Shown here: positions 280 through 57,226 of the stretch, piece after piece
Numbering within the stretch: position 1 is the first letter of the stretch
Layout: each line of letters begins with the position of its first letter
Assembly: GCA_018646625.1 (NCBI GenBank)
Contig: JABGUJ010000001.1
Span: 535,265-599,264, forward strand
From: Candidatus Woesearchaeota archaeon
Lineage (GTDB): Archaea > Nanobdellota > Nanobdellia > Woesearchaeales > JABGUJ01
Direction: 5' to 3'
Length of the DNA stretch: 64,000 bases
The notes under the pieces: generated by a model
What the model was told of the DNA's origin: nothing
Database searches by the model: none
What the model saw: only the letters and a program-made list of their open reading frames with translations
Translations under genes and position numbers: made by a program

Positions 280-1008
280 ATGGATCAAAAACATCTAGAA
301 AGCACAGGATTAACCGCCGCAGAATCTAAAGTATATCTTATGCTTCTTGAACAAGGTGCCAGTCTAGCGGGAGTTATCTCGAGAAATACAGGAATACACC
401 GAAGATCCGTATACGACGCTATTGAAAGACTAGTACAGAAGGGGCTTGTTTCTTACATTAAACAAAACAACCGAAAATACTTTCAAGCAGCAAGCCCCGA
501 AAGATTCTTAGAAATATTAAAAGAAAAAGAAGAGAACATAAAGAGTGTTTTACCAGAACTAAAACTTTTACAGCAAATGTCCGAAGGTAAAAACGAAACT
601 CTATTCTTTAGAGGAAGAACCGCACTAAGTACCGTTTTTGATGATCAAATAGAGAAAGAAGAAGACATTCTTGTATTCGGAACAACCCTTAAGTCATTTG
701 ATTATATGAAATACTACTTCCCCCATTATGACCGGAAAAGGGTTGAAAAAAAGATCAAAGTTAAACTCATTCTCAACGAAGAAGATAGAGATTTATACCT
801 CAAACTTAAACCAAAATTAACTGAAGCAAGATTCGTACCAAAAGAAGTTGTATCTCAAGTTGCTACTAATGTCTATGGCAGAAATGTTGCCATCGTTAGC
901 TGGCGTTTAGACAAAAACGATCCCGTGGCATTAATCATTAGACAAGATGAAATATCGGAGAGCTATAGAAGTTACTTCAATTTCATATGGAAGAGTGCAA
1001 AAAAATGA
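280..1008 (+). CDS. TrmB-family transcriptional regulator (paralogue A)
   Basis: 242 residues. Residues about 8-75 form the TrmB winged helix-turn-helix (LTAAESKVYLMLLEQG, then GIHRRSVYDAIERLVQKGLVSY), followed by a short coiled linker (about 75-105) and a C-terminal PLD-like effector domain ending in FNFIWKSAKK, as in the other three TrmB proteins of this window. Members of this family bind DNA and sense small molecules. A TATA-like box at 250-259 about 26 bases before the ATG suggests a leaderless transcript. Unlike the other three paralogues it is not divergent from a binding-protein gene; it overlaps the lipid kinase gene by an ATGA junction, so the two are translationally coupled. Confidence 0.9.
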   Translation: MDQKHLESTGLTAAESKVYLMLLEQGASLAGVISRNTGIHRRSVYDAIERLVQKGLVSYIKQNNRKYFQAASPERFLEILKEKEENIKSVLPELKLLQQMSEGKNETLFFRGRTALSTVFDDQIEKEEDILVFGTTLKSFDYMKYYFPHYDRKRVEKKIKVKLILNEEDRDLYLKLKPKLTEARFVPKEVVSQVATNVYGRNVAIVSWRLDKNDPVALIIRQDEISESYRSYFNFIWKSAKK

Positions 1009-4155: not shown

Positions 4156-5220
4156 TCAATATAAGACGAAAGACCCATTTTTCACTGTCTTAATCACGAT
4201 CTCTTTTCTAATGTCGCCAAAGGAATCAAATTTACTTAAACCGGTCACCCCTTCGTAAGTCAAGTTATACAATTCATCTTTTATACACGTAGAATCTTCC
4301 CCACATACTGATAAAACCAAAGAAATGATCTGAACACCATCATACATTAATGCTGCAAAACCCTCACTCATTCTACCATATTTCGCTTTATACTTTTCTT
4401 GATACACAACATTTAATGGATTATTAGACAACGGATCAAAATGGTAAGGATATACAACACCTTCTGCTGCAGAACCTGCAATCCTAATTAACTCCTCATT
4501 TTCCATAGTGGGTGTACCAAAAATTGTAAAATTCAATCCCAACTCTCTGGCCTGTTTCACCGCTAACCAATTATAATTAACATACAATAAAGCATCAACA
4601 TTGTACTGACTAACCTTCATCAACTCTGTGCGAAAATCATTTGCATCTGATTCAACAATCTCTTTAACCAAAACAGAACCATTAAAATTTCGTTCAAACT
4701 CGTCAACAAATCCATACCCGAAATCTGTATTGACTAAGATGATGCCTATATCATCAACCAAGGCAGATGAAGCTAACTTTTCTGCATAATAGAATGCATC
4801 TGGTTGAACTCTGAATACATAATCACCTGCATAACGTATTTTTGGTGAGACTGCAGAAGCTAATATGACTGTTTTACTTTTTTCTGCAATGGGAGCCATA
4901 GCCAAAACATCGCTTGAGCACCAATCCCCTAAAACAACAGAAACTCCATTAACATAAACTAATTTATTCATCGCAGTCGCCGCAGTCGCAGGTATACATT
5001 GACTATCTTCATATAATATTTTTAATTTAGAATCTCTTTTAGAATTTATTTCCTCAACAGCAAGATCTATTGCTTCTTTTATGTATTCTCCATATTGTGC
5101 GGATGTGCCGGATAAAGGAAGAATTGCTCCTATTTCAACATAATCTTCTTTTACAACCTGTCCACTAATACTGCATCCAACAATCAGAGCCAAAGCTAAC
5201 GCCAAAACAAAAATTCTCAT
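4156..5220 (-). CDS. Substrate-binding lipoprotein, Leu/Ile/Val-type (orphan)
   Basis: 354 residues from the ATG at 5220, which has GGTGG eight bases upstream; an in-frame TTG at 5235 is less likely. The signal sequence ends in a lipobox (LIVGC), then the type-I periplasmic-binding fold of LivJ-like proteins: VEIGAILPLSGTSAQYGE, AIDLAVEEIN, LKILYEDSQC and GDWCSSDVLAMAPIAEK. It would be anchored outside the cell membrane and bind an amino acid or similar solute. Paired Cys residues (C-x-C in the N-lobe) may form disulfides. No LivHMGF permease or ATPase gene is nearby; instead the divergent neighbour is a TrmB regulator. Paralogues are at 12413, 43603 and 56075. Confidence 0.9.
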   Translation of the reverse strand: MRIFVLALALALIVGCSISGQVVKEDYVEIGAILPLSGTSAQYGEYIKEAIDLAVEEINSKRDSKLKILYEDSQCIPATAATAMNKLVYVNGVSVVLGDWCSSDVLAMAPIAEKSKTVILASAVSPKIRYAGDYVFRVQPDAFYYAEKLASSALVDDIGIILVNTDFGYGFVDEFERNFNGSVLVKEIVESDANDFRTELMKVSQYNVDALLYVNYNWLAVKQARELGLNFTIFGTPTMENEELIRIAGSAAEGVVYPYHFDPLSNNPLNVVYQEKYKAKYGRMSEGFAALMYDGVQIISLVLSVCGEDSTCIKDELYNLTYEGVTGLSKFDSFGDIRKEIVIKTVKNGSFVLY

Positions 5221-5264
5221 CTCTACCACCAACAAAAGATATAAAAAACCAATATTTAAATATC

Positions 5265-5286
5265 TGTAGTCCTATATAAGACTACA
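5265..5286. promoter_or_regulatory. Perfect 7-bp inverted repeat between TrmB and binding-protein genes
   Basis: Arms TGTAGTC and GACTACA (5265-5271 and 5280-5286) are separated by eight bases containing CTATATAA. The repeat ends two bases before the ATG of the TrmB gene at 5289 and covers its likely transcription start, since the AT-rich box at 5250-5262 lies 26-30 bases before the ATG. A protein bound here would block trmB and could act on the divergent promoter. The half-site TGTAGTCCT recurs in the divergon at 12331-12351. Confidence 0.65.
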
Positions 5287-5288
5287 AA

Positions 5289-6020
5289 ATGAGATCCGAA
5301 TTAGAACTTTTAGGATTAACGGAAGGAGAATCTAAAGTCTATCTTGCATTATTAGAGCTTGGTTCTAGTCTAGCTGGGCCAATTATAAAGAAAACCAAAC
5401 TACATCGAGCAACAACATACCAAATCTTACAAAGACTTACAGAAAAAGGGTTAGTATCATTCACTATAATGAAAGGTAAAAGACATTTTGAGGCTGCCGA
5501 TCCTGAACAATTCTCAAGACAACTAAAAGAAAAGCAAGACATCTTATCACAGATCCTGCCTGAACTAAAATTAAAGAAATCATTAGCAAAACAATCGCAA
5601 GAAATTACTGTCTACCAAGGAAGAAATGGAATTAAAACAGTATGTGGACATATAATTAAGCGGCTCTCGCCAGGAGGGACATACTATGATTTTGGAGTTT
5701 CAGGGCTGTTCAGAGATATAATGAAAGAGTACTGGGATAAATGGCAAACTATGAAACAGAAGAACAACATCAAAGCAAAAGTTATATTCAATGAATCCAT
5801 AAGGAAAAACAAATATCTACTACAAGACATAAAAAACACATCATACAAGTTTGTACCGGATGAATTCTATTCTTCTACTGACACAATGATATTGGATGAC
5901 ACTATCATATTATTCATATGGACAGGACAACCGCCTTTAGCTGTAATGATAAAGAACAAAGAAAATGCTGAAGGTTACAAAAGACAATTTAACCTTATGT
6001 GGAAAAATGCAAAAAAATAA
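5289..6020 (+). CDS. TrmB-family transcriptional regulator (paralogue B)
   Basis: 243 residues. N-terminal winged helix (LGLTEGESKVYLALLELGSS, then HRATTYQILQRLTEKGLVSF) at about 7-62, helical linker to about 105, then the PLD-like effector domain starting ITVYQGRNGIKTV and ending FNLMWKNAKK. Divergent from the binding-protein gene at 4156-5220 with 68 bases between the ATGs. An inverted repeat ends two bases before its ATG, suggesting autoregulation. The mRNA is probably leaderless. By position it is likely the dedicated regulator of the binding protein; the ligand is unknown. Confidence 0.9.
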   Translation: MRSELELLGLTEGESKVYLALLELGSSLAGPIIKKTKLHRATTYQILQRLTEKGLVSFTIMKGKRHFEAADPEQFSRQLKEKQDILSQILPELKLKKSLAKQSQEITVYQGRNGIKTVCGHIIKRLSPGGTYYDFGVSGLFRDIMKEYWDKWQTMKQKNNIKAKVIFNESIRKNKYLLQDIKNTSYKFVPDEFYSSTDTMILDDTIILFIWTGQPPLAVMIKNKENAEGYKRQFNLMWKNAKK

Positions 6021-11183: not shown

Positions 11184-12296
11184 TTATTCAGATGCATGTT
11201 TCCATGAATCTTTAAAATGTTGTATGTGTTGTTTCACTACCTCTTCATCTTCTACGAGTAATGTTTTCAACTCTTGTGAAGAATAGTATGTCACAGACAT
11301 CTTCGTTCCACATATGAAATAAGTAGCTGGTCCACAAACATATGGTGGTAAAAATCTATACTGAAAATAAAACTCTTGGGATCTCCCTTTGCAATATTCT
11401 CGATTTGCTTTGCTATCATTATTTATGCTTAAAAATGAAAGTCCTTTCCTAACTCTCTCTGACTGCCACTTATCACCAACTTCTGCACCATATTGTTTGC
11501 GCAATCTTGTATCATATCCCATGTTTAATACTTCTTTACCTCCGCCTTCAAGAACTTCAAAGATTGCATATACAAAACCTTCTTTACCTGTAAATAATCT
11601 AGAATTTTGATTCCACAATAAATCGAATTGTTGACGAAATCCTTGTGCGAATTCTTTATTATCTATGAGAACACCAATCAACTCCTCTCCCCAGATAGAA
11701 AGTATTGCCTTATCGCCATACGAGTATGTTACTAGTGGACTTTTATATTCCTTTGACAAATATTTATACTCTGAACTCTCTGTTGGTTCAGTTCCTAAGG
11801 TGAACATTATCTTATGGTTAATTCCATGTTTCTTTACATCTCTAAAGTATTGCTTTGCAAACACAGGCATTTTCTCTCTCAATTGACCACCAGAACCAAA
11901 CAAACAAACTTCTTCTCCTGTTTTAATAATATCTCTATACAAATTTTTCATTCCTTCCGTTCCTTTGTAAACTTCAACTTGTGTTTTCTCCCTAGAAATC
12001 TCTTTTAGTTTTTTCAACTCATCAATATTATCTTCAATACGTTTTCTTTTCTCATCGATATAACCTAACAAGCTCTCAGGATCAGATGCTTGAAAATATT
12101 TTTTGTTACTTTTTTTAACATAACTAACTAGCCCTTTCTCTTTCAGCTTTTCCAAAGTATCGTAGATATGAGTTCTATGCTGGCCCGAAAACTCCGCTAA
12201 CCTGCTAACAGAGCAAGAACCATTTTTGAGCAAAGCTATGTAGATTATTGCTTCTCCATCTGACAATCCAATTTCTTTCAAAAAGCCTGTGTTCAT
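11184..12296 (-). CDS. TrmB-family regulator with duplicated effector domain (paralogue C)
   Basis: 370 residues from the ATG at 12296; an in-frame start 93 bases earlier would place the promoter inside the gene and is rejected. Winged helix at about 5-65 (IGLSDGEAIIYIALLKNG, HRTHIYDTLEKLKEKGLVSY), then two effector domains in tandem: one from VEVYKGTEGMKNL to QQFDLLWNQ (about 105-240), the second from FTGKEGFVYAIFEVL to HFKDSWKHASE (about 245-370). Both show the same begin-and-end pattern as the single domain of the paralogues. TATA-like box at 12317-12329 implies a leaderless mRNA. It is divergent from a binding-protein gene at 12413. Confidence 0.88.
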   Translation of the reverse strand: MNTGFLKEIGLSDGEAIIYIALLKNGSCSVSRLAEFSGQHRTHIYDTLEKLKEKGLVSYVKKSNKKYFQASDPESLLGYIDEKRKRIEDNIDELKKLKEISREKTQVEVYKGTEGMKNLYRDIIKTGEEVCLFGSGGQLREKMPVFAKQYFRDVKKHGINHKIMFTLGTEPTESSEYKYLSKEYKSPLVTYSYGDKAILSIWGEELIGVLIDNKEFAQGFRQQFDLLWNQNSRLFTGKEGFVYAIFEVLEGGGKEVLNMGYDTRLRKQYGAEVGDKWQSERVRKGLSFLSINNDSKANREYCKGRSQEFYFQYRFLPPYVCGPATYFICGTKMSVTYYSSQELKTLLVEDEEVVKQHIQHFKDSWKHASE

Positions 12297-12330
12297 AGTA
12301 TTATTAACACAGAAGCCATATTTAAGCCTT

Positions 12331-12351
12331 TTCGTCCGAATAAGGACTACA
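12331..12351. promoter_or_regulatory. Imperfect inverted repeat between divergent promoters
   Basis: GTCC (12334-12337) and GGAC (12344-12347) form the core of an imperfect dyad whose right part, AGGACTACA (12343-12351), is the reverse complement of TGTAGTCCT, also found in the operator at 5265. It lies between the minus-strand TATA-like box of the TrmB gene (12317-12329) and the plus-strand TATA-like box of the binding-protein gene (12353-12366), a good place for a regulator to act on both. Confidence 0.5.
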
Positions 12352-12412
12352 TAGATATATATAGATATTTTCGCTTGAAATACGTACAAAAAGGCGATTG
12401 TTGGAGGAAATA

Positions 12413-13558
12413 ATGAGATTAAAATTCATATTAGCGGTAGCTATACTAATATTAATTGTTGGGTGCGGTAGCAACACGATATCTGGTAAGGTAGTTCAAA
12501 AGCAAACATTAGAGCCAATAAAGATTGGTGCAATTCTTCCTTTATCTGGTGCTGCGTCTTTCATAGGAGAACCTGAACTTGATGGTATGATTCTTGCAGT
12601 TGAAGAAATAAATTCTGATGGGGGAATTAATGGGCGAGAACTAAAACTAATTGTTGAAGACTCACAAACTAATCCTGTGGCTGCAGTGAAAGCAGCAAAC
12701 AAACTAATTAATCTAGATAATGTAGATATTTTGTATGGGACAACAACGGGAGCTAGTGGTGCTGTTGCTCCTTTTGCTCAAGAGAGCAACACTGTGTTCA
12801 TATACGAATCAACAACTGTAAAGTTTGCGACAGAAAATGATTTGGTTTTCGGAACCTATCCTAATGCGTATGACTTCTGCAAACAAGCCGCTCTTTTAGC
12901 AATACAAGAAGGAAAGAAAAGACTTGCTTTGATTGCACTAAACTTTGATGCATCCTTCGACTGTAAACGAGGAATTGAAGATGCAACATCCAACACTGAC
13001 ACCACTCTTGTATTCTTACAAATGTATGAGATGGAAGAAAAAGATTTCAGAACAAATCTGATGAGAGTTAAAGAAGAGAACATTGATGGTTTGCTTCTAT
13101 ATTCTTACTCAAAGAATAATGTTCCTCTCTTCCAACAAGCATTAGATCTAAACATCAATACAACAATGATCTGTCCTTTATTAACTGCTAGCTGTCACGG
13201 TGTGGATGAGATTGATGCTCTGGCAAAGAACACCAAGATATTGGATGGTGCTTTAGGCACAAACATACCATTTGATTCCAAGTCTGATGACCCTAAAATG
13301 CGAGCATTTGTTAAAAGGTTTAAAGAAAGATTCAACAAAACTTTGGGCGTGGAAGAAGCATTCACTTACGATGATGTATATTTAATCAAAGAAGCTCTAA
13401 CCAAATGTACAGCATTATCGACGGAATGTATCAAAGAATCTCTGCTTTCTACAACATTGGATGGGATCAGTGGAGAAATTGTATTTGACAAAGACGGGGT
13501 TGCAACCAGAGACATAGCATTTGTTAAGTTTGAAAACAAAGAATGGGTTGGGTATTAA
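12413..13558 (+). CDS. Substrate-binding lipoprotein, Leu/Ile/Val-type (orphan)
   Basis: 381 residues from ATG 12413, with GGAGG six bases upstream; the in-frame TTG at 12398 overlaps that site. Signal peptide with lipobox (LIVGC), then the LivJ-like fold: IGAILPLSGAASFIGEPELDG, VEEINSDGGINGREL and VEDSQTNPVAAVKAANKLI. It would be lipid-anchored outside the cell and bind a small solute. No transport permease or ATPase gene adjoins it. Divergent partner is the double-effector TrmB protein. Confidence 0.9.
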   Translation: MRLKFILAVAILILIVGCGSNTISGKVVQKQTLEPIKIGAILPLSGAASFIGEPELDGMILAVEEINSDGGINGRELKLIVEDSQTNPVAAVKAANKLINLDNVDILYGTTTGASGAVAPFAQESNTVFIYESTTVKFATENDLVFGTYPNAYDFCKQAALLAIQEGKKRLALIALNFDASFDCKRGIEDATSNTDTTLVFLQMYEMEEKDFRTNLMRVKEENIDGLLLYSYSKNNVPLFQQALDLNINTTMICPLLTASCHGVDEIDALAKNTKILDGALGTNIPFDSKSDDPKMRAFVKRFKERFNKTLGVEEAFTYDDVYLIKEALTKCTALSTECIKESLLSTTLDGISGEIVFDKDGVATRDIAFVKFENKEWVGY

Positions 13559-14495: not shown

Positions 14496-15011
14496 TTAAT
14501 ACCTATAACTTGGCCCGATAGAATCTCTTACCTGCACGTTATTAAATCGTCTATTGTAACGATGCATGTAATTACCTCTGTTATTGTTAGCAACAAATCC
14601 GGATACTCCTAATGATCCCTCTCTGCCATAACCTCTATTAGAATTTTGTCCTTGATAATTTTTAATATTAAATGTTCCATATCCTCTAGAGCCAAGAATG
14701 CCAACAGTACTTCTACCATCATTCAGCTTACTATTAAATCTCACAGAATAAGGGCTAGATCTGCCATAACCATAAGAACCCAAAACACCTTCTCTGCCAT
14801 AACCATGATTGGCTGCATTGTAATTCACCGCAACATAATTTAAGTTGTTTGCAGAAAACTTATGCGTATTAGTATGCAAGTTTCGAGCTTGATTATTCAT
14901 TCCTAGACGAAATTGAGAATTGCCTAACGCAACACTATTCATTCCGTAAGCAAAACTAAAAGTAGATAGAACTAAAAAAAACAGGGTTAAAAAAACAAAA
15001 ATCTTTTTCAT
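14496..15011 (-). CDS. Secreted Gly/Tyr/Asn/Arg-rich repeat protein (cluster member 5)
   Basis: 171 residues. Signal peptide of about 21 residues (MKKIFVFLTLFFLVLSTFSFA). The mature chain is low-complexity, Cys-free and basic, with at least three copies of a GYGR-x-G-x-LG motif (HGYGREGVLGSYGYGR, SRGYGTFN, RGYGREGSLGVSG) and a final run of aromatic-Arg pairs ending PSYRY. No known domain. It lies three bases after a related gene and is likely cotranscribed with it. A cell-surface or matrix role is inferred from export and composition only. Confidence 0.72.
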   Translation of the reverse strand: MKKIFVFLTLFFLVLSTFSFAYGMNSVALGNSQFRLGMNNQARNLHTNTHKFSANNLNYVAVNYNAANHGYGREGVLGSYGYGRSSPYSVRFNSKLNDGRSTVGILGSRGYGTFNIKNYQGQNSNRGYGREGSLGVSGFVANNNRGNYMHRYNRRFNNVQVRDSIGPSYRY

Positions 15012-15014
15012 CGT

Positions 15015-15428
15015 TTACCATCGACCGCCTAAGAAACCAGTGCCAGTTCTATAGAATCCACGAGTTCTAGGTGCAGGATTATAACTTTTTGCTCCAAATG
15101 ATCTGAAGTTTGCTCTTCCTGAATCGTAGTTTCTTTCTACTCCAGTCCATGCAAAGTCATTTTGTCTTGCTGGAACAGTATATCTTTTGTAACCGTCTCC
15201 ATATCTTCCCAAAAATGCGTGCCTTCCATAACCACTGTCCATACCGTAACCTACGTTCCAAGTATCGACTGGTCTTGCGTTGCCTGCGAATGGTGCTCCC
15301 ATAGTACCTTGTCTGCCCCAACCATTATTGTAACCATAACCTACGTTCCAAGTGTCGTAAGCTAGAGCAACAGTTGTGGTAACTAGCAAAAAGATAGCAG
15401 CCATAACAATTACCATTAGTTTTTTCAT
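15015..15428 (-). CDS. Secreted Gly/Tyr/Arg-rich repeat protein (cluster member 4)
   Basis: 137 residues, signal peptide to about residue 23 (ends VALA). The mature part has two copies of DTWNVGYG (residues about 25 and 55), each followed by a GWGR/GYGR-x-x-x-[LM]G element (GWGRQGTMG, GYGRHAFLG), then a basic aromatic tail. Cys-free. The motif links it to cluster member 5. Ribosome site GAGG lies upstream of the ATG. Function unknown. Confidence 0.72.
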   Translation of the reverse strand: MKKLMVIVMAAIFLLVTTTVALAYDTWNVGYGYNNGWGRQGTMGAPFAGNARPVDTWNVGYGMDSGYGRHAFLGRYGDGYKRYTVPARQNDFAWTGVERNYDSGRANFRSFGAKSYNPAPRTRGFYRTGTGFLGGRW

Positions 15429-15442
15429 TTTCTATTTCCTCC

Positions 15443-15814
15443 TCAAAATGCGTAACCATAATCAGTTGAATATACTCTGTTTCCCCATCTATCAAAGCCG
15501 AGAAATCTGTCGCTATTATAATTGTGAACTATTCCATACTGACTACCGTAGCCATAATTGCTACCAAATCTGTTATATCTGTAACCTCTGTAATGTGTTC
15601 CTCTGTTGAATTTTTTGTATGTAACTCTGTAATCATGTGCAACACCTGTATGCCCTGGCATTGGTGTTATTTCTCTTGCTTCATTGAATGTTCCTTTGTA
15701 AGTTCCAGGATAATACCAGTTCTCAGGAGAACTCTTATCAAATACAACGCCTGTTGCGAATACAGAACTACAAAGAAGAATCAACATTGCTAGCATTAAT
15801 ATTACTTTTTTCAT
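15443..15814 (-). CDS. Secreted Tyr/Arg/Gly/Asn-rich protein (cluster member 3)
   Basis: 123 residues with a signal peptide (MKKVILMLAMLILLCSSVFA). The mature chain is rich in Tyr, Arg, Asn and Gly: THYRGYRYNRFGSNYGYGSQYG and FLGFDRWGNRVYSTDYGYAF. No folded-domain signature. Its ATG is one base after the preceding gene stop, indicating an operon with members 2, 4 and 5. Confidence 0.72.
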   Translation of the reverse strand: MKKVILMLAMLILLCSSVFATGVVFDKSSPENWYYPGTYKGTFNEAREITPMPGHTGVAHDYRVTYKKFNRGTHYRGYRYNRFGSNYGYGSQYGIVHNYNSDRFLGFDRWGNRVYSTDYGYAF

Positions 15815-15815
15815 T

Positions 15816-16280
15816 TTACATCAACCTCTTTCCGTAATGACCGTAACGACTGAATGATGCACTGTATGCAACATCGTGTTTAACCATTCCAACACCTCTT
15901 GAATAAAAAGGCGAATTGAAAGTCCAAGGGTTTGTTCTTTTTCCAACCCAAGTTGGTCTTTTGAAATTGTTTTTCTCACCACCAAATCTGGTGTTGAATA
16001 AATGTGATCTTGAAAATTTTTCATAAGGTACAGGATCAAAATAATTTACGTAGCCAAAGTTTCTTTTATCATTAATTTGCTTCAACTTGTAAGCATCAAC
16101 TGTCCTTTGTCGTTCATTTGCATTGAAATCTTCAGGCAGTTGCTTGTAGATTTGCATGCTTTTGTGAACTGGTGAAAATTTAGGAGCAAAAACCACTCCC
16201 CCAACATTGTAAGCGAAGGCATATCCTGCCAAAACTAGCAAAAGAAGCCCTAAGATCATAAATCTGGCTATTCTTACCAT
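15816..16280 (-). CDS. Secreted basic aromatic-rich protein (cluster member 2)
   Basis: 154 residues from the ATG at 16280; an in-frame ATG 18 bases earlier would precede the likely transcription start, given the TATA-like box at 16308-16316. Signal peptide to about residue 25 (LVLAGYAFA). The mature part is rich in Arg, Lys, Phe, Tyr and Asn, ends SFSRYGHYGKRLM, and lacks Cys. First gene of the tightly spaced secreted-protein operon running down to the methyltransferase. Confidence 0.7.
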   Translation of the reverse strand: MVRIARFMILGLLLLVLAGYAFAYNVGGVVFAPKFSPVHKSMQIYKQLPEDFNANERQRTVDAYKLKQINDKRNFGYVNYFDPVPYEKFSRSHLFNTRFGGEKNNFKRPTWVGKRTNPWTFNSPFYSRGVGMVKHDVAYSASFSRYGHYGKRLM

Positions 16281-16296
16281 TTGTACATAATATAGC

Positions 16297-16308
16297 ACTA
16301 GAACTAGT
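16297..16308. promoter_or_regulatory. 12-bp palindrome at promoter of secreted-protein operon
   Basis: ACTAGAACTAGT is a dyad with 5-bp arms around an AA/TT centre. It lies between the TATA-like box (TTTAAAT at about 16308-16316, minus strand) and the ATG at 16280, so it covers the start region of the operon promoter and could bind a repressor. Confidence 0.4.
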
Positions 16309-16349
16309 ATTTAAATCTTTCTAAATTTGACCACTATTCAGTGACAAAC

Positions 16350-16685
16350 CTATCTGAAGTGGTATGTTCGGCTTATTGTTGGCCGATATGCGTGGGTAGG
16401 AGATCTCCAGGCGCCATAATTACCAGGCCTAAAATAAGTATAAGTTCTCGAGCCATACCAATCTCTATTATTCCCGCTATATCCCGAATAGAAGTTGTTT
16501 CTGTACATCCCTTCATAGGTGTTCCAACCAGGGCTGTAGCCTGCCATGTTTCTGTAATATCCATCATGATATTTAGCATTCTTAAAATTACCATAATCGA
16601 AATCATAGTAGAAAGCGCTTGAAACAGTAGATAAAGCACTAAACAATATCAACAAAATAACCAAGACTATTGTACCCTTTTTCAT
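16350..16685 (-). CDS. Secreted Tyr/Arg/Asn-rich protein (cluster member 1)
   Basis: 111 residues, signal peptide to about residue 24 (ends VSSA), then FYYDFDYGNFKNAKYHDGYYRN and a chain in which Tyr is the commonest residue together with Arg, Asn and Gly, ending RTYHFR. No Cys. A GGGGGG ribosome site is seven bases before the ATG. It is 52 bases upstream of member 2 promoter-side, so it is probably a separate transcript but the same type of protein. Confidence 0.7.
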   Translation of the reverse strand: MKKGTIVLVILLILFSALSTVSSAFYYDFDYGNFKNAKYHDGYYRNMAGYSPGWNTYEGMYRNNFYSGYSGNNRDWYGSRTYTYFRPGNYGAWRSPTHAYRPTISRTYHFR

Positions 16686-41401: not shown

Positions 41402-42811
41402 ATGCAAACGCATGATTTGGGGGAACTATTAGAACGAAAACCTGCTGATATTAGCATAAGCGATCTTCTAGGAGAACATGCCAAACAACACCCAATACGT
41501 TGTGGGGACATACATTACATTAAACTTCCAGGTCTGGAAGAAGAAAAAAGAAGGCTTCTTCATCCACTTCAAACTGGCGGGTACAATTGGAGCGAGTTTT
41601 CAGGTCCATTTGTTAATACCCGTGGATCAACTTTCAATTGGGTTTGTGTTTCTAAAGATCACGAAACAGTATATGCGAAAGCACCCGGTTTGATGAGATT
41701 ACAAAGAATAAAACAACTTAGCATTCTTGCAAATCCTATGTTGGCTCCAACTGAACAATGTTGTCATGATTTGATTTTTACACACACTAGAGAAGAACAT
41801 AGCCAACTAGCTGCGGCTTACGCAGAAACAATGATGCGTCTTAGCGGTAGATCTGATGATGATACAAAGAAAGTGGTGGTTGCGGCTTTACTTCACGACG
41901 TTGCAACTGTTGCGGGTGGTGACGCTATGAAAATGGTTGCGCCAAAGGAACTTGATGAAGAGATGCTTGCAGAACGAGTTCTAAAACGAGATCCTGTTTT
42001 GCCTTTTTTACAAGAAGAAAAACTTGATCCTGATGAGATACTTGCAATAATTAAGAATGAAGGTCTACTTGGTAAAGTGTTGGACTTAGTTGATAGATTA
42101 TCTTACACTGCACTAGATTCATTTCATTTTTGTGATTTGTATGACTTAGAAGATGAAGCTGTATCTGAATGGCCTGAACACATCCGTCACTATCATACCA
42201 AAGGAAAAGCCGCCGCCGACATTATGTACGCAAATCCTAATTTATTTGACTTCATTTTTTCATTTAGAGTTACCGATGAAGGGATTTGTTGCCAAGACCC
42301 TGATTCTTTAGGTAAATTCTTAGAACTAAGAGCAGTAATGCATCGCGATCTTTACATGGACGCTTTTGCTCATATATCTGAAGTTTTTCTTTCACCTTTC
42401 TGCGAGCACATCTATGAGAAGAAAGGGGTTGAGTGGTTACTTGAAGCCGATAATCGAGAACTCTATGATGAAGTTGCAGGGGTTGTAAGACGGAATTCTG
42501 GATTGGATGTAACCCCATGGATGGAAGGTTTACTTCGCAATTATGATGTTTGTGTGGATGAACTATCAACGGATGATGATGTTACTGTTTTCAAACGAAA
42601 ACTTATGCGACAAGGGAGAGTTGCGATAAAAGAATTAGATTTCAGAAGAGGATTCAACTCAAATACAAATCTTTTAGTTTGCACAGATGACAACGCAATA
42701 CCTTTCTATGTTGAACAACCAGAAGTTGCACAACGCATAGAACAAATAGTTGATCAGGTAAGAACAATCAGAGTTTATCACGCGCGACCTTACTTCAAAT
42801 CATTTCTTTGA
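41402..42811 (+). CDS. HD-domain phosphohydrolase
   Basis: 469 residues. GLMRLQRIKQLSI then FTHTREEHSQLAAAYAE (His133), VAALLHDVAT (His165-Asp166) and VLDLVDRLSYT (Asp231) give the H..HD..D metal set in the order found in dGTPase/SAMHD1-like HD proteins. The C-terminal half is unassigned. Substrate could be a nucleotide. It is Lys-poor. TATA-like box near 41370-41378 precedes the ATG. The last 12 bases overlap the convergent TrmB gene. Confidence 0.8.
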   Translation: MQTHDLGELLERKPADISISDLLGEHAKQHPIRCGDIHYIKLPGLEEEKRRLLHPLQTGGYNWSEFSGPFVNTRGSTFNWVCVSKDHETVYAKAPGLMRLQRIKQLSILANPMLAPTEQCCHDLIFTHTREEHSQLAAAYAETMMRLSGRSDDDTKKVVVAALLHDVATVAGGDAMKMVAPKELDEEMLAERVLKRDPVLPFLQEEKLDPDEILAIIKNEGLLGKVLDLVDRLSYTALDSFHFCDLYDLEDEAVSEWPEHIRHYHTKGKAAADIMYANPNLFDFIFSFRVTDEGICCQDPDSLGKFLELRAVMHRDLYMDAFAHISEVFLSPFCEHIYEKKGVEWLLEADNRELYDEVAGVVRRNSGLDVTPWMEGLLRNYDVCVDELSTDDDVTVFKRKLMRQGRVAIKELDFRRGFNSNTNLLVCTDDNAIPFYVEQPEVAQRIEQIVDQVRTIRVYHARPYFKSFL

Positions 42812-43522
42812 AACTTTCCAAATATTCCAGAACATCTGTCGATACTGTTCTGCTATAACTTTGGACTCTATCAGAAATCCTGTTGGCGCATCATTCCAAG
42901 AAATTATTAGTATTTTGTTTCTAAATATTCCCATATTAGGTGGTAAAGGAAAATCTGCATACCTTGGTTCAATATAATCAAATTCTCCATATAATCCTCG
43001 TTTGTACGACGGCACAACCCCGTACACTTTTAGTCCCATCTCTTGTCTTTTCTTATCATATTGCAAGTAAATTTTACCTACTGCTTCATCATACTCTTTT
43101 TCTTCTCCACCAAAAAACAAAAACTCATCACCTTTTTCTCCGTCAGAGATAAATGCTTGCAACATTGACTTTATTCCGCTTAATCCTTTATACACTTCCG
43201 ACTCTTCTTTATCTTCTGCTAGCCTTCTCTTTAATTCAAGTTCTGGAAGAATATTTTCTACTCTTCTCTCTCTGTCTTTTAGAATTTCTAATAAAAACTT
43301 TGGATCCGTTGCGGTGTAATGTTTTATTTTTCCTTTTTTTACAAACTTAATTAGTCCTTTCTCCAACAAAGTATTCAAGCAAGTATGTACGGTGGAGCTT
43401 TGTAACTTAGATTTCTCAATCACTCTGCCAACCTTTGATGTTCCAATTTCCAATAATGTCAAGTAGACTTTAGTTTCTCCTTTCGACAAACCAATTTCTT
43501 CAAACAACGCCTCATCAATCAT
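42800..43522 (-). CDS. TrmB-family transcriptional regulator (paralogue D)
   Basis: 240 residues from ATG 43522; a TTG three codons earlier falls inside the operator repeat. Winged helix at about 7-60 (IGLSKGETKVYLTLLEIGTS, SSTVHTCLNTLLEKGLIKF), helical linker, then the effector domain from SEVYKGLSGIKSML to MFWNIWKVSKK. A TATA-like box at 43545-43556 puts the transcription start at or near the ATG, with an inverted repeat in between. Divergent from the binding-protein gene at 43603. Confidence 0.9.
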   Translation of the reverse strand: MIDEALFEEIGLSKGETKVYLTLLEIGTSKVGRVIEKSKLQSSTVHTCLNTLLEKGLIKFVKKGKIKHYTATDPKFLLEILKDRERRVENILPELELKRRLAEDKEESEVYKGLSGIKSMLQAFISDGEKGDEFLFFGGEEKEYDEAVGKIYLQYDKKRQEMGLKVYGVVPSYKRGLYGEFDYIEPRYADFPLPPNMGIFRNKILIISWNDAPTGFLIESKVIAEQYRQMFWNIWKVSKK

Positions 43523-43542
43523 ACTCTCCAATACTGGAGAGT
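43523..43542. promoter_or_regulatory. Perfect 7-bp inverted repeat at TrmB start
   Basis: ACTCTCC (43523-43529) and GGAGAGT (43536-43542) around AATACT. The repeat abuts the ATG of the TrmB gene and ends next to its TATA-like box. It is the third such element beside a TrmB/binding-protein pair, but its arms differ from those at 5265 and 12331. Confidence 0.65.
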
Positions 43543-43602
43543 TATTATTTAAATTTATCTGATGATTTTAGCATATTGGGTATTTAGGCAGGAGGCGCTA
43601 AG

Positions 43603-44712
43603 ATGAGGTATTTATTAATTATTATAGCTTTAGCTCTATTAATCACAGGCTGTGGCTCACAACAAATCACTGCACAAGTTACTAAAGAACCAGTTTACAA
43701 GATTGGTATTCTCGGACCATTTGCAGGACCAACTGCAAGGTATGGTGAAGCAATGGATGCCGGTTATCAATTGGCTCTTGAAGATCTTAAAGATTCTGGA
43801 ATCAACTTCAAATTAATCTATGAAGATTCTCACTGCGATAATAAATACGCAAAAACCGCTGCAGAAAAACTAATTGCATTAGATAAAGTTGACATTCTTT
43901 TAGGTCCATATTGTGATGGTACTAACTTGGTCGCATCTCAGTCTGAAGAATATCATAATAAAGTGATGCTTTCTCCGGTTGGTGTTAGCAGACAACATGC
44001 TGGTTTAGGTGAAACGTTCTTCAGATTACAACCATCAAATGAAGTTGAGATACAAACATTAGTTAACTATATCTTCGACAAAACACAACACAGAAACTTT
44101 GTCATAGTTTATTTAAACAACAACTTTGGTTTTGAATATCGTGATGTTTTTAATGAACTTGTCGACGAGAACAATGGAAAAATCATATTTGAGGAAGGCT
44201 ACGAATTATTAGATTCTGACTTCCGAACTACAATAACAAAAATAAAAGCATCTGAAGCTGATGCGATATTTTTTGTGAGTTCCGATTTTCAGGCAGCACA
44301 ATTCATTAAACAAGTTAGAGAACAACAGTTTAGCATTCCGATTTACAGTACAGTTAATTCTCAAAGTGTAAAAATAATTGACATCGCAGGACAAGCAGCT
44401 GAAAATTTAACCTTTGCATTCAACGATGACACCAACTTAACAGAAAAACAAATAGAATTTTACTCTAGGTTAAAACAAAATAATTATCGGCTAACTGGAT
44501 TCGTTGAAGCTAATGCTTACGATGCGTTACATCTGGCTGTTGATGCACTAAAGGAATGTGGTTCAAACATGCAATGTCAGAGCAATTTCTTCAACTCCAT
44601 TAGCAACTACTCTGGTGCTTCTGGCAACATAGATTTATCTTCAGGAGATATAAGAAGAAACATGGTTGTTAAGAGTTACAGAGCCGGAGAATTCATAAAA
44701 GTGGCGAATTAG
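43603..44712 (+). CDS. Substrate-binding lipoprotein, Leu/Ile/Val-type (orphan)
   Basis: 369 residues. Lipobox LITGC at about residue 17, then KIGILGPFAGPTARYGEAMDAG, FKLIYEDSHCD and LGPYCDGTNLVASQSEEY of the LivJ-like fold. GGAGG lies nine bases before the ATG. Paired Cys in each lobe suggest disulfides outside the cell. No transport partner gene is adjacent. Divergent from TrmB paralogue D with 80 bases between the ATGs. Confidence 0.9.
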   Translation: MRYLLIIIALALLITGCGSQQITAQVTKEPVYKIGILGPFAGPTARYGEAMDAGYQLALEDLKDSGINFKLIYEDSHCDNKYAKTAAEKLIALDKVDILLGPYCDGTNLVASQSEEYHNKVMLSPVGVSRQHAGLGETFFRLQPSNEVEIQTLVNYIFDKTQHRNFVIVYLNNNFGFEYRDVFNELVDENNGKIIFEEGYELLDSDFRTTITKIKASEADAIFFVSSDFQAAQFIKQVREQQFSIPIYSTVNSQSVKIIDIAGQAAENLTFAFNDDTNLTEKQIEFYSRLKQNNYRLTGFVEANAYDALHLAVDALKECGSNMQCQSNFFNSISNYSGASGNIDLSSGDIRRNMVVKSYRAGEFIKVAN

Positions 44713-54937: not shown

Positions 54938-55894
54938 TTAATCAGGTATATAGTTTAGAATGTGGAATGTTGAGAATCCGAAGTAATCAACATCATCTAC
55001 TGCTTCTTTAAACTCCATCTTTATCTCATCAATCAGTTTCAACAAGTGTTGTAGATCTTTTACTATCACTTCCATCTCGAAGTTGGCACCGCCTATAGAT
55101 TTGTTAATTTGATATATATTCTTGTGTTGTCGACAGAACTCAAATAATCTCTTATTATCTTTTGTTGAACTTAACTCTAAATCTACTCTGTATCCTTCAT
55201 AACCTAATTTTCCTTGATTCAATCCGATTTTATATCCGCAAATAATCTTTCTTTCCTCGAGCTTCTTGATTCTCGCTCTAACAGTATCTGCACTCACACC
55301 AACCGCTTTTGAGATTTCCATGCTTGATTTTCTTACCGCCGGTGCATACTCTTGTATTATCTCCCAATCAAGATCATCAACGTCTTCTGCAGAACCGTCA
55401 CCGTAAATTCTCATCACAACTTCTTCATTCGTCTCTACAAAAAAAGTTCTATTAAAATTATAGACTGGAGCATACACTGCCACATTATACTGTTTTATAT
55501 TTCCTTTATACTTTAACATCATTCCATCCCATATGTTATGAAACTCCATTATGTTCTTTACACCCAAGAATAATGCGTAGTCCCATTTACCGTGCATCGA
55601 TGTAATTGTCCAAACCTGTGGATACTCTTTTTTCAGAAACTCTACAAACAATTTTCCATCTTTCTCTGTCATGTTTCTAAATTTAATATACACCCTAAAT
55701 GAGAAATAACCTAACTTCGCCATGTCAACAATCGCATGATACCCTGTAATGATTCCTTCTTTTTCCAACCGCCTCATTCGATTTAACACAAACGGTTTTG
55801 ACCTGCTTAATTTCCGCGAAAGCTGTGTTAAACCTATATGAGAGTCCCTATCTACCTCATATAGAATTCGTTGATCGTATGAATCTAGCTGCAT
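54938..55894 (-). CDS. Double Lrp/AsnC-family regulator (tandem fusion)
   Basis: 318 residues, twice the usual length. First Lrp winged helix at about 5-55 (DQRILYEVDRDSHIGLTQLSRKL, NRMRRLEKEGIITGY), first RAM-like domain to about 155; second helix-turn-helix at about 172-222 (DWEIIQEYAPAVRKSSMEISKAV, VRARIKKLEERKIICGY), second RAM-like domain to the end. Lrp proteins respond to amino acids. It is divergent from an amino-acid-type binding-protein gene at 56075. TATA-like box at about 55918-55926. Confidence 0.88.
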   Translation of the reverse strand: MQLDSYDQRILYEVDRDSHIGLTQLSRKLSRSKPFVLNRMRRLEKEGIITGYHAIVDMAKLGYFSFRVYIKFRNMTEKDGKLFVEFLKKEYPQVWTITSMHGKWDYALFLGVKNIMEFHNIWDGMMLKYKGNIKQYNVAVYAPVYNFNRTFFVETNEEVVMRIYGDGSAEDVDDLDWEIIQEYAPAVRKSSMEISKAVGVSADTVRARIKKLEERKIICGYKIGLNQGKLGYEGYRVDLELSSTKDNKRLFEFCRQHKNIYQINKSIGGANFEMEVIVKDLQHLLKLIDEIKMEFKEAVDDVDYFGFSTFHILNYIPD

Positions 55895-56020
55895 GTTTTT
55901 AAATACTGCGTATACCTATTTAAATATTACCTTTAAAGTTAAAAATAACTCACCTTATGTTTTATATCTAAAAACTGCATTTTACTTCTTGTTGGTGGTT
56001 GGCATATTGTGAATTAGATC

Positions 56021-56048
56021 CAGAGCTAGGCAATTAGCGTTAGCTCTG
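56021..56048 (+). promoter_or_regulatory. 8-bp hairpin in the leader of the binding-protein gene
   Basis: CAGAGCTA (56021-56028) and TAGCTCTG (56041-56048) form a perfect stem with a 12-base loop, 10 bases before the GAGGTG ribosome site (about 56058-56063). It may be an RNA element or a regulator site. Confidence 0.5.
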
Positions 56049-56074
56049 TAATGACCGTTGAGGTGAAATGCAGA

Positions 56075-57226
56075 ATGAAAGAACAAAATTCAATTTTAGC
56101 AATCTTGGCTTTGCTAGTTATAGTTATGGTGATCGCAGGTTGTGGTTCAAAAACCATTGCTTCTAGTGCTGAGGTAGTAAAAGAAACAAAACAACCAATC
56201 AAAGTTGGCGTTATTTTGGCTTTGACTGGTGGTGCCGCAATGTATGGTAACCCTATGCTTGATGCAATGACTCTTGCAGCTGAAGAAATCAACAGCAAAG
56301 GTGGAATTGACGGAAGAGCAATAGAGTTTGTGGTCGAAGACGGACAATGTCAACCCACTCCTGCGGCAAACGCAGCACAAAAATTAGTAAACATGGACAA
56401 AGTAGAAGTTATTTTAGGAGGATTATGTTCTTCTGAAACATTAGCAGTTGCCCCTATAGTTGAAGCAGCACATGTAACATTATTATCTCCTTCATCCACT
56501 AGTCCTGCAATAACTAAAGCTGGAGATTTCATCTTTAGAGATATTGCATCAGATCTTGCTCAAGCAACTGTTGGTGCAAAGATGATGTATGATGCAGGAT
56601 TAAGAGAAGTTGCTGTCCTAGTTGTCAACGACGATTACGGTATAGGAATCAGAGATGCATTTGTATCACACTTTGAAAAGTTAGGTGGAACAGTAACTAC
56701 GACTGTAACTCTAGAAAAAGAAGGCAAGGACTACAGAACTGAGTTGATGAAAGTTAAAGATTCTGAGCCTGATGCATTTTATTTGGCGGCCTTCCCTAAA
56801 GAGGCGGGTCTTACTTTAAAACAATCTGCTGAAATTGGAATGGACGTTCCTGTGTTTGGAACTGAAGTACTAAATGATGGCTCTCTTGTAGAAGTTGCAG
56901 GAAATGCTGCAGACGGTTTAAAGATTACTGTGCCTGCCGCAGGAACTGGAAGTGTATACGCGGACTTCAAATCATCCTACAATACGAAGTTTGGAAGAGA
57001 TCCTGAAGCATATACAGCTGAAAGCTATGATGCAGTATTCCTTATTGCTGACGCATTAAAGAAAACTGACGGATCTGGTGAGAAGATAAAAGATGAACTT
57101 TATCAGACTAGATTTGTTGGTGCATCTGGGGTAATAGTCTTCAATGCAGATGGCGATCCAGTTGACAAAGAATATGATATTCTTGAACTAACCTCTGGAA
57201 CATTCGTTAACATTGGAAAAGTTTAA
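56075..57226 (+). CDS. Substrate-binding lipoprotein, Leu/Ile/Val-type (orphan)
   Basis: 383 residues from ATG 56075 (GAGGTG nine bases upstream); the ATG at 56051 lies next to the hairpin. Lipobox VIAGC, then VGVILALTGGAAMYGNPMLDAMTLAAEEINSKGGIDGR, VVEDGQCQPTPAANAAQKL and GGLCSSETLAVAPIVE. The most typical LivJ-like sequence of the four. No LivHMGF genes adjacent. Its 3' end has an intrinsic-type terminator. Confidence 0.92.
   Translation: MKEQNSILAILALLVIVMVIAGCGSKTIASSAEVVKETKQPIKVGVILALTGGAAMYGNPMLDAMTLAAEEINSKGGIDGRAIEFVVEDGQCQPTPAANAAQKLVNMDKVEVILGGLCSSETLAVAPIVEAAHVTLLSPSSTSPAITKAGDFIFRDIASDLAQATVGAKMMYDAGLREVAVLVVNDDYGIGIRDAFVSHFEKLGGTVTTTVTLEKEGKDYRTELMKVKDSEPDAFYLAAFPKEAGLTLKQSAEIGMDVPVFGTEVLNDGSLVEVAGNAADGLKITVPAAGTGSVYADFKSSYNTKFGRDPEAYTAESYDAVFLIADALKKTDGSGEKIKDELYQTRFVGASGVIVFNADGDPVDKEYDILELTSGTFVNIGKV

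Follow-up and report, generated by a model that had tools for sequence, protein, structure and literature searches.

Our analysis suggests, with a probability of roughly 0.6, that in this archaeon a single LivHMGF importer serves many exchangeable receptors, each under its own regulation. A profile search of the genome (1,572,594 bases in four contigs, 96.4% complete) found 34 Peripla_BP_6 domains, all 34 above the cut-off, which we read as 32 receptor genes, two of them double. A lipobox export signal is present in 31 of the 32 under a lenient pattern, the focal gene included. Genome-wide, permeases of the LivH/LivM type (BPD_transp_2) are encoded by two adjacent genes at C2:450093-451787. 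As 32 receptor genes stand against one importer and 28 of them have a regulator of their own, the cell likely swaps receptors on a shared pump, and the receptors would take turns on it as the food changes.

The window, i.e., the whole stretch of 64,000 nucleotides that was analysed, contains four receptor genes. At 4156-6020, the first-pass annotation had described a LivJ-like lipoprotein gene and a divergent TrmB gene, and both are found there:

4156-5220, minus strand: module 1 receptor, a LivJ-type (type I) solute-binding lipoprotein of 354 aa with a lipobox (Peripla_BP_6, 7.9e-39).
5253-5262, no strand: TATTTAAATA, a TATA-like box that is its own reverse complement and is positioned for both genes, a putative promoter element (sequence and TATA scan).
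5265-5286, no strand: palindrome TGTAGTC-CTATATAA-GACTACA (TGTAGTC-N8-GACTACA), the predicted TrmB operator (palindrome scoring).
5289-6020, plus strand: module 1 regulator, a TrmB-family protein of 243 aa (PF01978, 2.2e-13; model pLDDT 94.3; TrmBL2 and TrmB folds).

The receptor scored 134.7 bits for Peripla_BP_6 (curated cut-off 31.7), with 3td9 as its closest solved structure (5.3e-30), and TrmB scored 50.3 bits for PF01978 (cut-off 25.6). The receptor start is most likely the ATG at 5220, giving 354 aa and the lipobox LIVGC, with a TTG at 5235 as the less likely choice. In the 68-bp gap between the two genes, the TATA scan puts the TATTTAAATA box at 34 bp from the start codon of TrmB and 40 bp from that of the receptor. 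The palindrome sits between this box and the trmB start, 4 bp upstream of the receptor TATA, and ends 2 bp before the TrmB ATG. It had been called a perfect inverted repeat, which is true of the outer 7-bp arms but not of position 8, where there is a mismatch; its score stands out from 60 shuffles (p = 0.016). Genome-wide, the pattern has a single exact match, and five more places match it with two mismatches, against two for a reversed control pattern. An operator common to the focal module and the liv cassette was looked for and not found: the cassette shows no copy of the focal palindrome. Among the open reading frames of the 64-kb window, no permease or ATPase lies near the receptor, as first noted, and no complete ABC import locus (permease plus ATPase) stands beside it.

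Three further copies of the layout had been reported, at 11184-13558, at 42800-44712 and, in an Lrp version, at 54938-57226, and all three were found. Together with a solitary TrmB gene, the window thus also holds:

280-1008, plus strand: TrmB-family regulator without a receptor (PF01978, 2.7e-15; neighbour listing).
11184-12296, minus strand: module 2 regulator, TrmB-family, 370 aa, with the C-terminal domain twice (PF01978, 3e-15).
12334-12347, no strand: GTCCGAATAAGGAC, a weak candidate for the module 2 operator, located 8 bp upstream of the receptor TATA (p = 0.39).
12413-13558, plus strand: module 2 receptor, LivJ-type lipoprotein, 381 aa (Peripla_BP_6, 4.5e-52).
42800-43522, minus strand: module 3 regulator, TrmB-family, 240 aa (PF01978, 2.3e-12).
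43523-43542, no strand: ACTCTCCA-ATAC-TGGAGAGT, the predicted operator of module 3 (p = 0.016 and p = 0.005 in two palindrome tests).
43603-44712, plus strand: module 3 receptor, LivJ-type lipoprotein, 369 aa (Peripla_BP_6, 1.1e-39).
54938-55894, minus strand: module 4 regulator, Lrp/AsnC-type, 318 aa, with two HTH domains (HTH_AsnC-type, 4.7e-16, two stretches).
56051-57226, plus strand: module 4 receptor, LivJ-type lipoprotein (Peripla_BP_6, 1.1e-55).

In the module 2 TrmB protein, the PLD-like effector domain is duplicated, the second match to the TrmB profile covering residues 230-369. Modules 1 and 3 have clear palindromes (p = 0.016 each), and the predicted operator of module 3 abuts the TrmB start and lies 5 bp upstream of the receptor TATA. 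In module 2 the signal is weaker and ambiguous, with p = 0.049 for one candidate and 0.39 for GTCCGAATAAGGAC, which is overlapped by a two-mismatch match to the module 1 pattern, and module 4 has no palindrome below p 0.05. Elsewhere in the window, five minus-strand reading frames in tandem at 14496-16685 encode small exported Gly-/Tyr-rich proteins.

Across the genome, the pairing of receptor and regulator is far beyond chance. A divergent regulator lies directly upstream of 28 of the 32 receptor genes, compared with 10 of 244 other genes from the same loci, which had been chosen for holding receptors or TrmB genes. The regulators of the 28 comprise 20 of the TrmB family, which answers the call for further TrmB-receptor pairs, 5 of Lrp type and 3 AbrB/PhoU-like proteins. 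At C1:319503 a 90-aa reading frame separates the receptor from its TrmB gene, and three receptors (C2:31355, C2:141270 and C2:142556) have no regulator. The genome has 31 TrmB domains above the cut-off and 30 full-length TrmB genes, nine of which, including the one at 280-1008, lie apart from receptors. Three of these nine are divergent from genes for sodium:solute symporters (SSF) in the same one-regulator, one-uptake-gene layout (C2:122833-125025, C1:366780-369140 and C2:355030-357227), and symporters make up 3 of the 10 regulator-facing genes that are not receptors. This TrmB subfamily hence seems to go with uptake genes. Nine relatives of the same order yielded 59 receptor genes or fragments, and 29 of these are directly preceded by a divergent regulator (23 TrmB, 5 Lrp, 1 AbrB-like); of the others, one has a tandem TrmB gene, four lie at a contig edge and the remainder are arranged otherwise. 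Little pairing is seen in relatives G128 (0 of 5) and G026 (1 of 6).

LIV-type receptors of the Peripla_BP_6 family work with LivHM-type permeases, and a whole-genome search for livH, livM, livG and livF, as had been proposed, returned exactly one LivHMGF cassette for the 32 receptor genes, distant from the window. Thus, of the two options first put forward, a distant transporter does exist; that it is shared is our prediction. In the cassette, the LivH/LivM pair is accompanied by ATPases of the LivG and LivF types, a double receptor and an intervening HAD-type gene; the cassette faces an AbrB-domain regulator. Apart from it, the genome has one PF00528 match among other importer permeases, and ABC ATPase domains number 12 in all. 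With a single LivH/LivM pair in this assembly, it is excluded that each receptor has a complete ABC locus of its own. The orphan receptors would dock on the distant LivHM pair, as we propose by analogy with rhizobial BraC3.

Some features of the cassette deserve mention in their own right. The insert between livF and livG (C2:448602-449222) reads as a HAD-type phosphatase-like frame, its identity taken from the sequence. Double receptors in one polypeptide occur at C2:128843-131128 and, at the liv locus, C2:454885-457026; the liv-locus form recurs in relative G111 (C1:6632-8815). AbrB-type regulators also lie near liv-locus receptors in relatives G000, G053 and G111. LivH (C2:450918-451808) is closest, among the matches listed, to bacterial LivH, with 55% identity to a Bacillota record; the listed matches from named genomes are mostly bacterial (41-55% identity), with two archaeal records at 45%, and the gene may have been transferred from bacteria. 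In another archaeal record, Candidatus Ainarchaeum STA_60, one LivH is surrounded by four reading frames for LIV-type receptors.

If the orphan receptors fed no transporter, they could act at the cell surface as sensors or scavengers, holding solutes or signalling via other membrane proteins; sensing was the second of the options first considered. We regard this as unlikely, and the distribution of receptors and permeases across the order speaks on both sides. Among 145 genomes, 29 have receptors and 18 a permease, and all 18 permease genomes have receptors, compared with 11 of the 127 without a permease (Fisher 8e-16, a statistic that ignores kinship). Conversely, these 11 of 29 receptor-bearing genomes, most with one receptor, have no LivHM permease found, which favors a role apart from transport; one of them, G128, has four receptor matches and is 88% complete. 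Fifteen of the 18 permease genomes have exactly two permease genes, i.e., one pair, the others being G025 with four, G084 with three and G127 with one. Receptor matches number 1 to 9 in the other genomes and 34 in our own, where the figure comes from the genome-wide profile search, the order survey having scored 13 of 36 own candidates. In G038, G007 and G084, liv genes and receptor-TrmB modules are intermingled or no more than a few kb apart, which argues against receptors that serve no transporter. So does the signalling repertoire: the genome has no chemoreceptor (MCP) domain in a search that matches 7 of 14 control genomes, and its HATPase_c matches are only 9, a number that also covers gyrase-type proteins. 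A sensing-only role is thus less well supported than a shared importer.

By their sequences, the receptors are old and diverse, with a median identity of 25% among the 21 TrmB-paired receptors of the genome. In LivJ, we take positions 79 (S), 102 (T) and 226 (E) to hold the amino and carboxyl groups of the amino acid. We read these positions from one MAFFT alignment to a Serratia LIV receptor at about 25% identity, so that individual positions are uncertain. The focal receptor has S, V and P there and does not keep the amino-acid set. All three (Ser, Thr, acidic) are kept in 6 of 34 domains, and the 28 that lack at least one are a point in favor of sensors or scavengers. Those that keep the set are 3 of 5 Lrp-paired domains, 1 of 21 TrmB-paired, 1 of 5 AbrB-paired and 1 of 3 others, Lrp-paired differing from TrmB-paired at p = 0.014. 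The module 4 receptor retains S79/T102/E226. However, the three Lrp-paired receptors that keep the positions are not independent, since they form one clade with the first liv-locus receptor, near bacterial liv-locus receptors. We predict that Lrp-paired receptors bind amino acids and that, because the amino-acid-binding positions have changed, most TrmB-paired ones bind other solutes; the ligands are probably not all amino acids. Apart from the binding site, 26 of the 32 receptors, e.g., those at 4156-5220 and 12413-13558, match a lenient motif, [TSI][GA]x[VIAPST][VITP], directly behind the lipobox cysteine (as in TGEVV and SGKVV), which may be an anchor or processing motif specific to the lineage.

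The focal regulator was modeled with high confidence (pLDDT 94.3, pTM 0.62) as a winged HTH, a helix and a PLD-like C-terminal domain, and the structure matches taken up from the VIA-align listing are of PLD-like, TrmB and winged-helix types. Its best Foldseek match is TrmBL2 (5bpd), and it also covers the PLD-like half of the TrmB effector domain, with residues 110-240 of 2f5t only. The sugar-binding lobe is absent from this coverage, and the profile search gave no PF11495 match, which fits a short TrmBL2-like layout of HTH and PLD-like domain without the lobe. With such a C-terminal domain, ligand sensing is not assured. The active-site signature of PLD enzymes, H-x-K, is not present in the sequence, so the protein is likely not an enzyme. 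Its nearest named relatives are labelled Nanoarchaeota, Woesearchaeota, Pacearchaeota or archaeon, and we assign the source organism to this group accordingly. Given the fold match to TrmBL2, described as an archaeal chromatin protein, and the missing lobe, the regulators might be general DNA- or chromatin-binding proteins that adjoin receptor genes by chance and sense no ligand. We consider this improbable: chance would hardly yield 28 pairs among 32 receptors, and the palindromes vary between modules, some being common only to a related module in another family (g16, g194, g267), which does not fit a nonspecific coat on the DNA.

Receptor choice by private regulators is further addressed by the palindromes. 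A simple scan served to locate the receptor TATA in each of the 21 TrmB modules, and the 34 bp preceding it were scored for palindromes against exact dinucleotide shuffles. Upstream of the TATA, 8 of 21 modules reach p <= 0.05 (combined p 6e-8), compared with 2 of 21 downstream (combined p = 0.17). In 12 of 21 own modules, 3-6 bp separate the end of the best palindrome from the TATA downstream of it (shuffled mean 4.9, p = 0.003); for the relatives, the same holds in 9 of 19 modules (shuffled mean 4.6, p = 0.027). In the relatives, upstream strength is weak (4 of 20, p = 0.026) and does not exceed that downstream (4 of 21, p = 0.002). Upstream segments shorter than 14 bp (own g111, relative r136) give a meaningless p of 0.010, and the upstream count for relatives went from 5 of 21 to 4 of 20 when r136 was dropped. 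Among the eight palindromes that are significant in our genome, five start at a distance of 0-5 bp from the TrmB start and three at 31-44 bp.

The palindromes differ from module to module. Half-sites are common to related modules of different families, i.e., CTACTA..TAGTAG to g16 and a G007 module, GTTGT..ACAAC to g194 and a G007 module and, by eye, CTCC-N6-GGAG to g39 and a G038 module. Similarity of the intergenic DNA follows that of the HTH (r = 0.17, p = 0.0012) over 21 own and 20 relatives' modules, three relatives with intergenic lengths of 0, 38 and 439 having been left out. The g39-G038 pair is the top HTH match, yet has the worst score in the DNA comparison because a start is misplaced. 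For TrmB-type sites, a position upstream of BRE/TATA has been reported to bring activation and one downstream repression (PMC4158304, in the part available). By this rule, a palindrome upstream of the receptor TATA would mean, in both palindrome layouts, that TrmB activates its receptor gene; each receptor would likely be switched on by its own regulator at the palindrome next to its promoter. If the palindrome reaches the trmB start, which is the case in modules 1 and 3, TrmB would repress its own gene as well.

The first-pass annotation had suggested a family of one-regulator, one-receptor units. The units stand, with 28 of 32 receptors paired. Duplication as whole units, which the word family implies, is not supported, given the weak agreement between the trees of receptors and regulators. 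Inside the genome, receptor and TrmB distances correlate with a Mantel r of 0.23 (p = 0.019), and over 44 pairs including relatives with r = 0.29 (p = 0.0005, shuffled inside genomes). In only 2 of the 21 own modules do receptor and TrmB point to the same module for their nearest paralogue; for 7 of 21, both genes have their nearest counterpart in one and the same module of a relative, where simple arithmetic would give about one. Between g39 and the G038 module, the two genes are 56% and 70% identical. The focal TrmB protein has its closest relatives (39-61% identity) in 12 other genomes, and in all 12 there is no receptor gene within about 1.5 kb of them. The regulator family changes at least 12 times on the receptor tree, which has 60 labelled tips, 16 of them not TrmB, as a raw count. 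Duplication of intact units as the main route is hence not supported, given the weak tree agreement, three regulator families and re-pairing. Some of the units seem to be conserved and others newly put together with different regulators, receptors and regulators having apparently been re-paired repeatedly, which argues for selection on a private regulator.

That receptors pass solutes to secondary carriers such as sodium:solute symporters is very unlikely, since no receptor gene adjoins a symporter in the fetched stretches and the receptor family is known as the partner of LivHM-type permeases, even though three SSF symporters are divergent from TrmB genes of the same kind and binding-protein-dependent secondary transport has a precedent in the TAXI-GltS carrier of Bordetella (PMC12344293, in the part available).

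On the strength of genome architecture, we thus favor the shared importer. A fuller form of this reading, a plug-in uptake with one ABC engine and about thirty interchangeable, ligand-diverse receptors, each with a private one-component regulator and a palindromic switch, has in our view about an even chance of being right. If so, a 1.57-Mb archaeal genome would spend 32 genes and about as many regulators on choosing the cargo of one importer, and the regulated step of nutrient uptake would be the choice of receptor rather than of transporter. An archaeon with a reduced genome would retune one importer by receptor exchange instead of keeping thirty transporters. The matched triples of receptor, regulator and operator would then be a ready set for ligand work and biosensors, and a lineage with only one candidate permease would allow the role of orphan binding proteins to be tested.

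Parts of this arrangement have counterparts in known systems. E. coli LivJ and LivK, two LIV receptors, share the LivHMGF permease; as here, there is more than one LIV receptor per permease, but only two, under bacterial regulation. Another counterpart is BraC3, an orphan LIV-type receptor that works with the rhizobial Bra membrane complex (PMC2978685), the same importer class; for the archaeal receptors, such a coupling is predicted from their co-occurrence with the permease. BraC3 is one extra receptor in a bacterium, for which the part of that report available mentions no dedicated regulator, as opposed to about thirty receptors in an archaeon. The Bug (TctC) proteins of Bordetella and its relatives include 76 TctC homologues in B. 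pertussis. There, too, binding-protein genes far exceed their membrane partners, and the authors suggest, in the part of the report available, partners common to several binding proteins and encoded elsewhere (PMC11452294). Bug proteins, however, belong to another binding-protein family and use a secondary (TTT) carrier; TctC is not among the Pfam matches of the four window receptors, which match Peripla_BP_6 instead. Moreover, one Bug cluster is tied to NadQ in the available part of that source, whereas nearly every archaeal receptor has a private divergent regulator. TrmB and TrmBL of Thermococcales and Halobacterium share the TrmB HTH, palindromic sites and, as predicted here, control of ABC receptor genes with position-dependent activation or repression, but, as far as the available part of the source goes, with a complete ABC operon and a sugar-binding lobe (PMC4158304), while here the receptor gene is alone and the lobe is missing. 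None of the papers listed in our literature search describes one importer with many receptors under private regulators. An excess of orphan receptors and the sharing of LIV permeases are thus known from Bug and BraC3; what appears new, as far as gene content tells, is the archaeal scale and the private regulator for each receptor.
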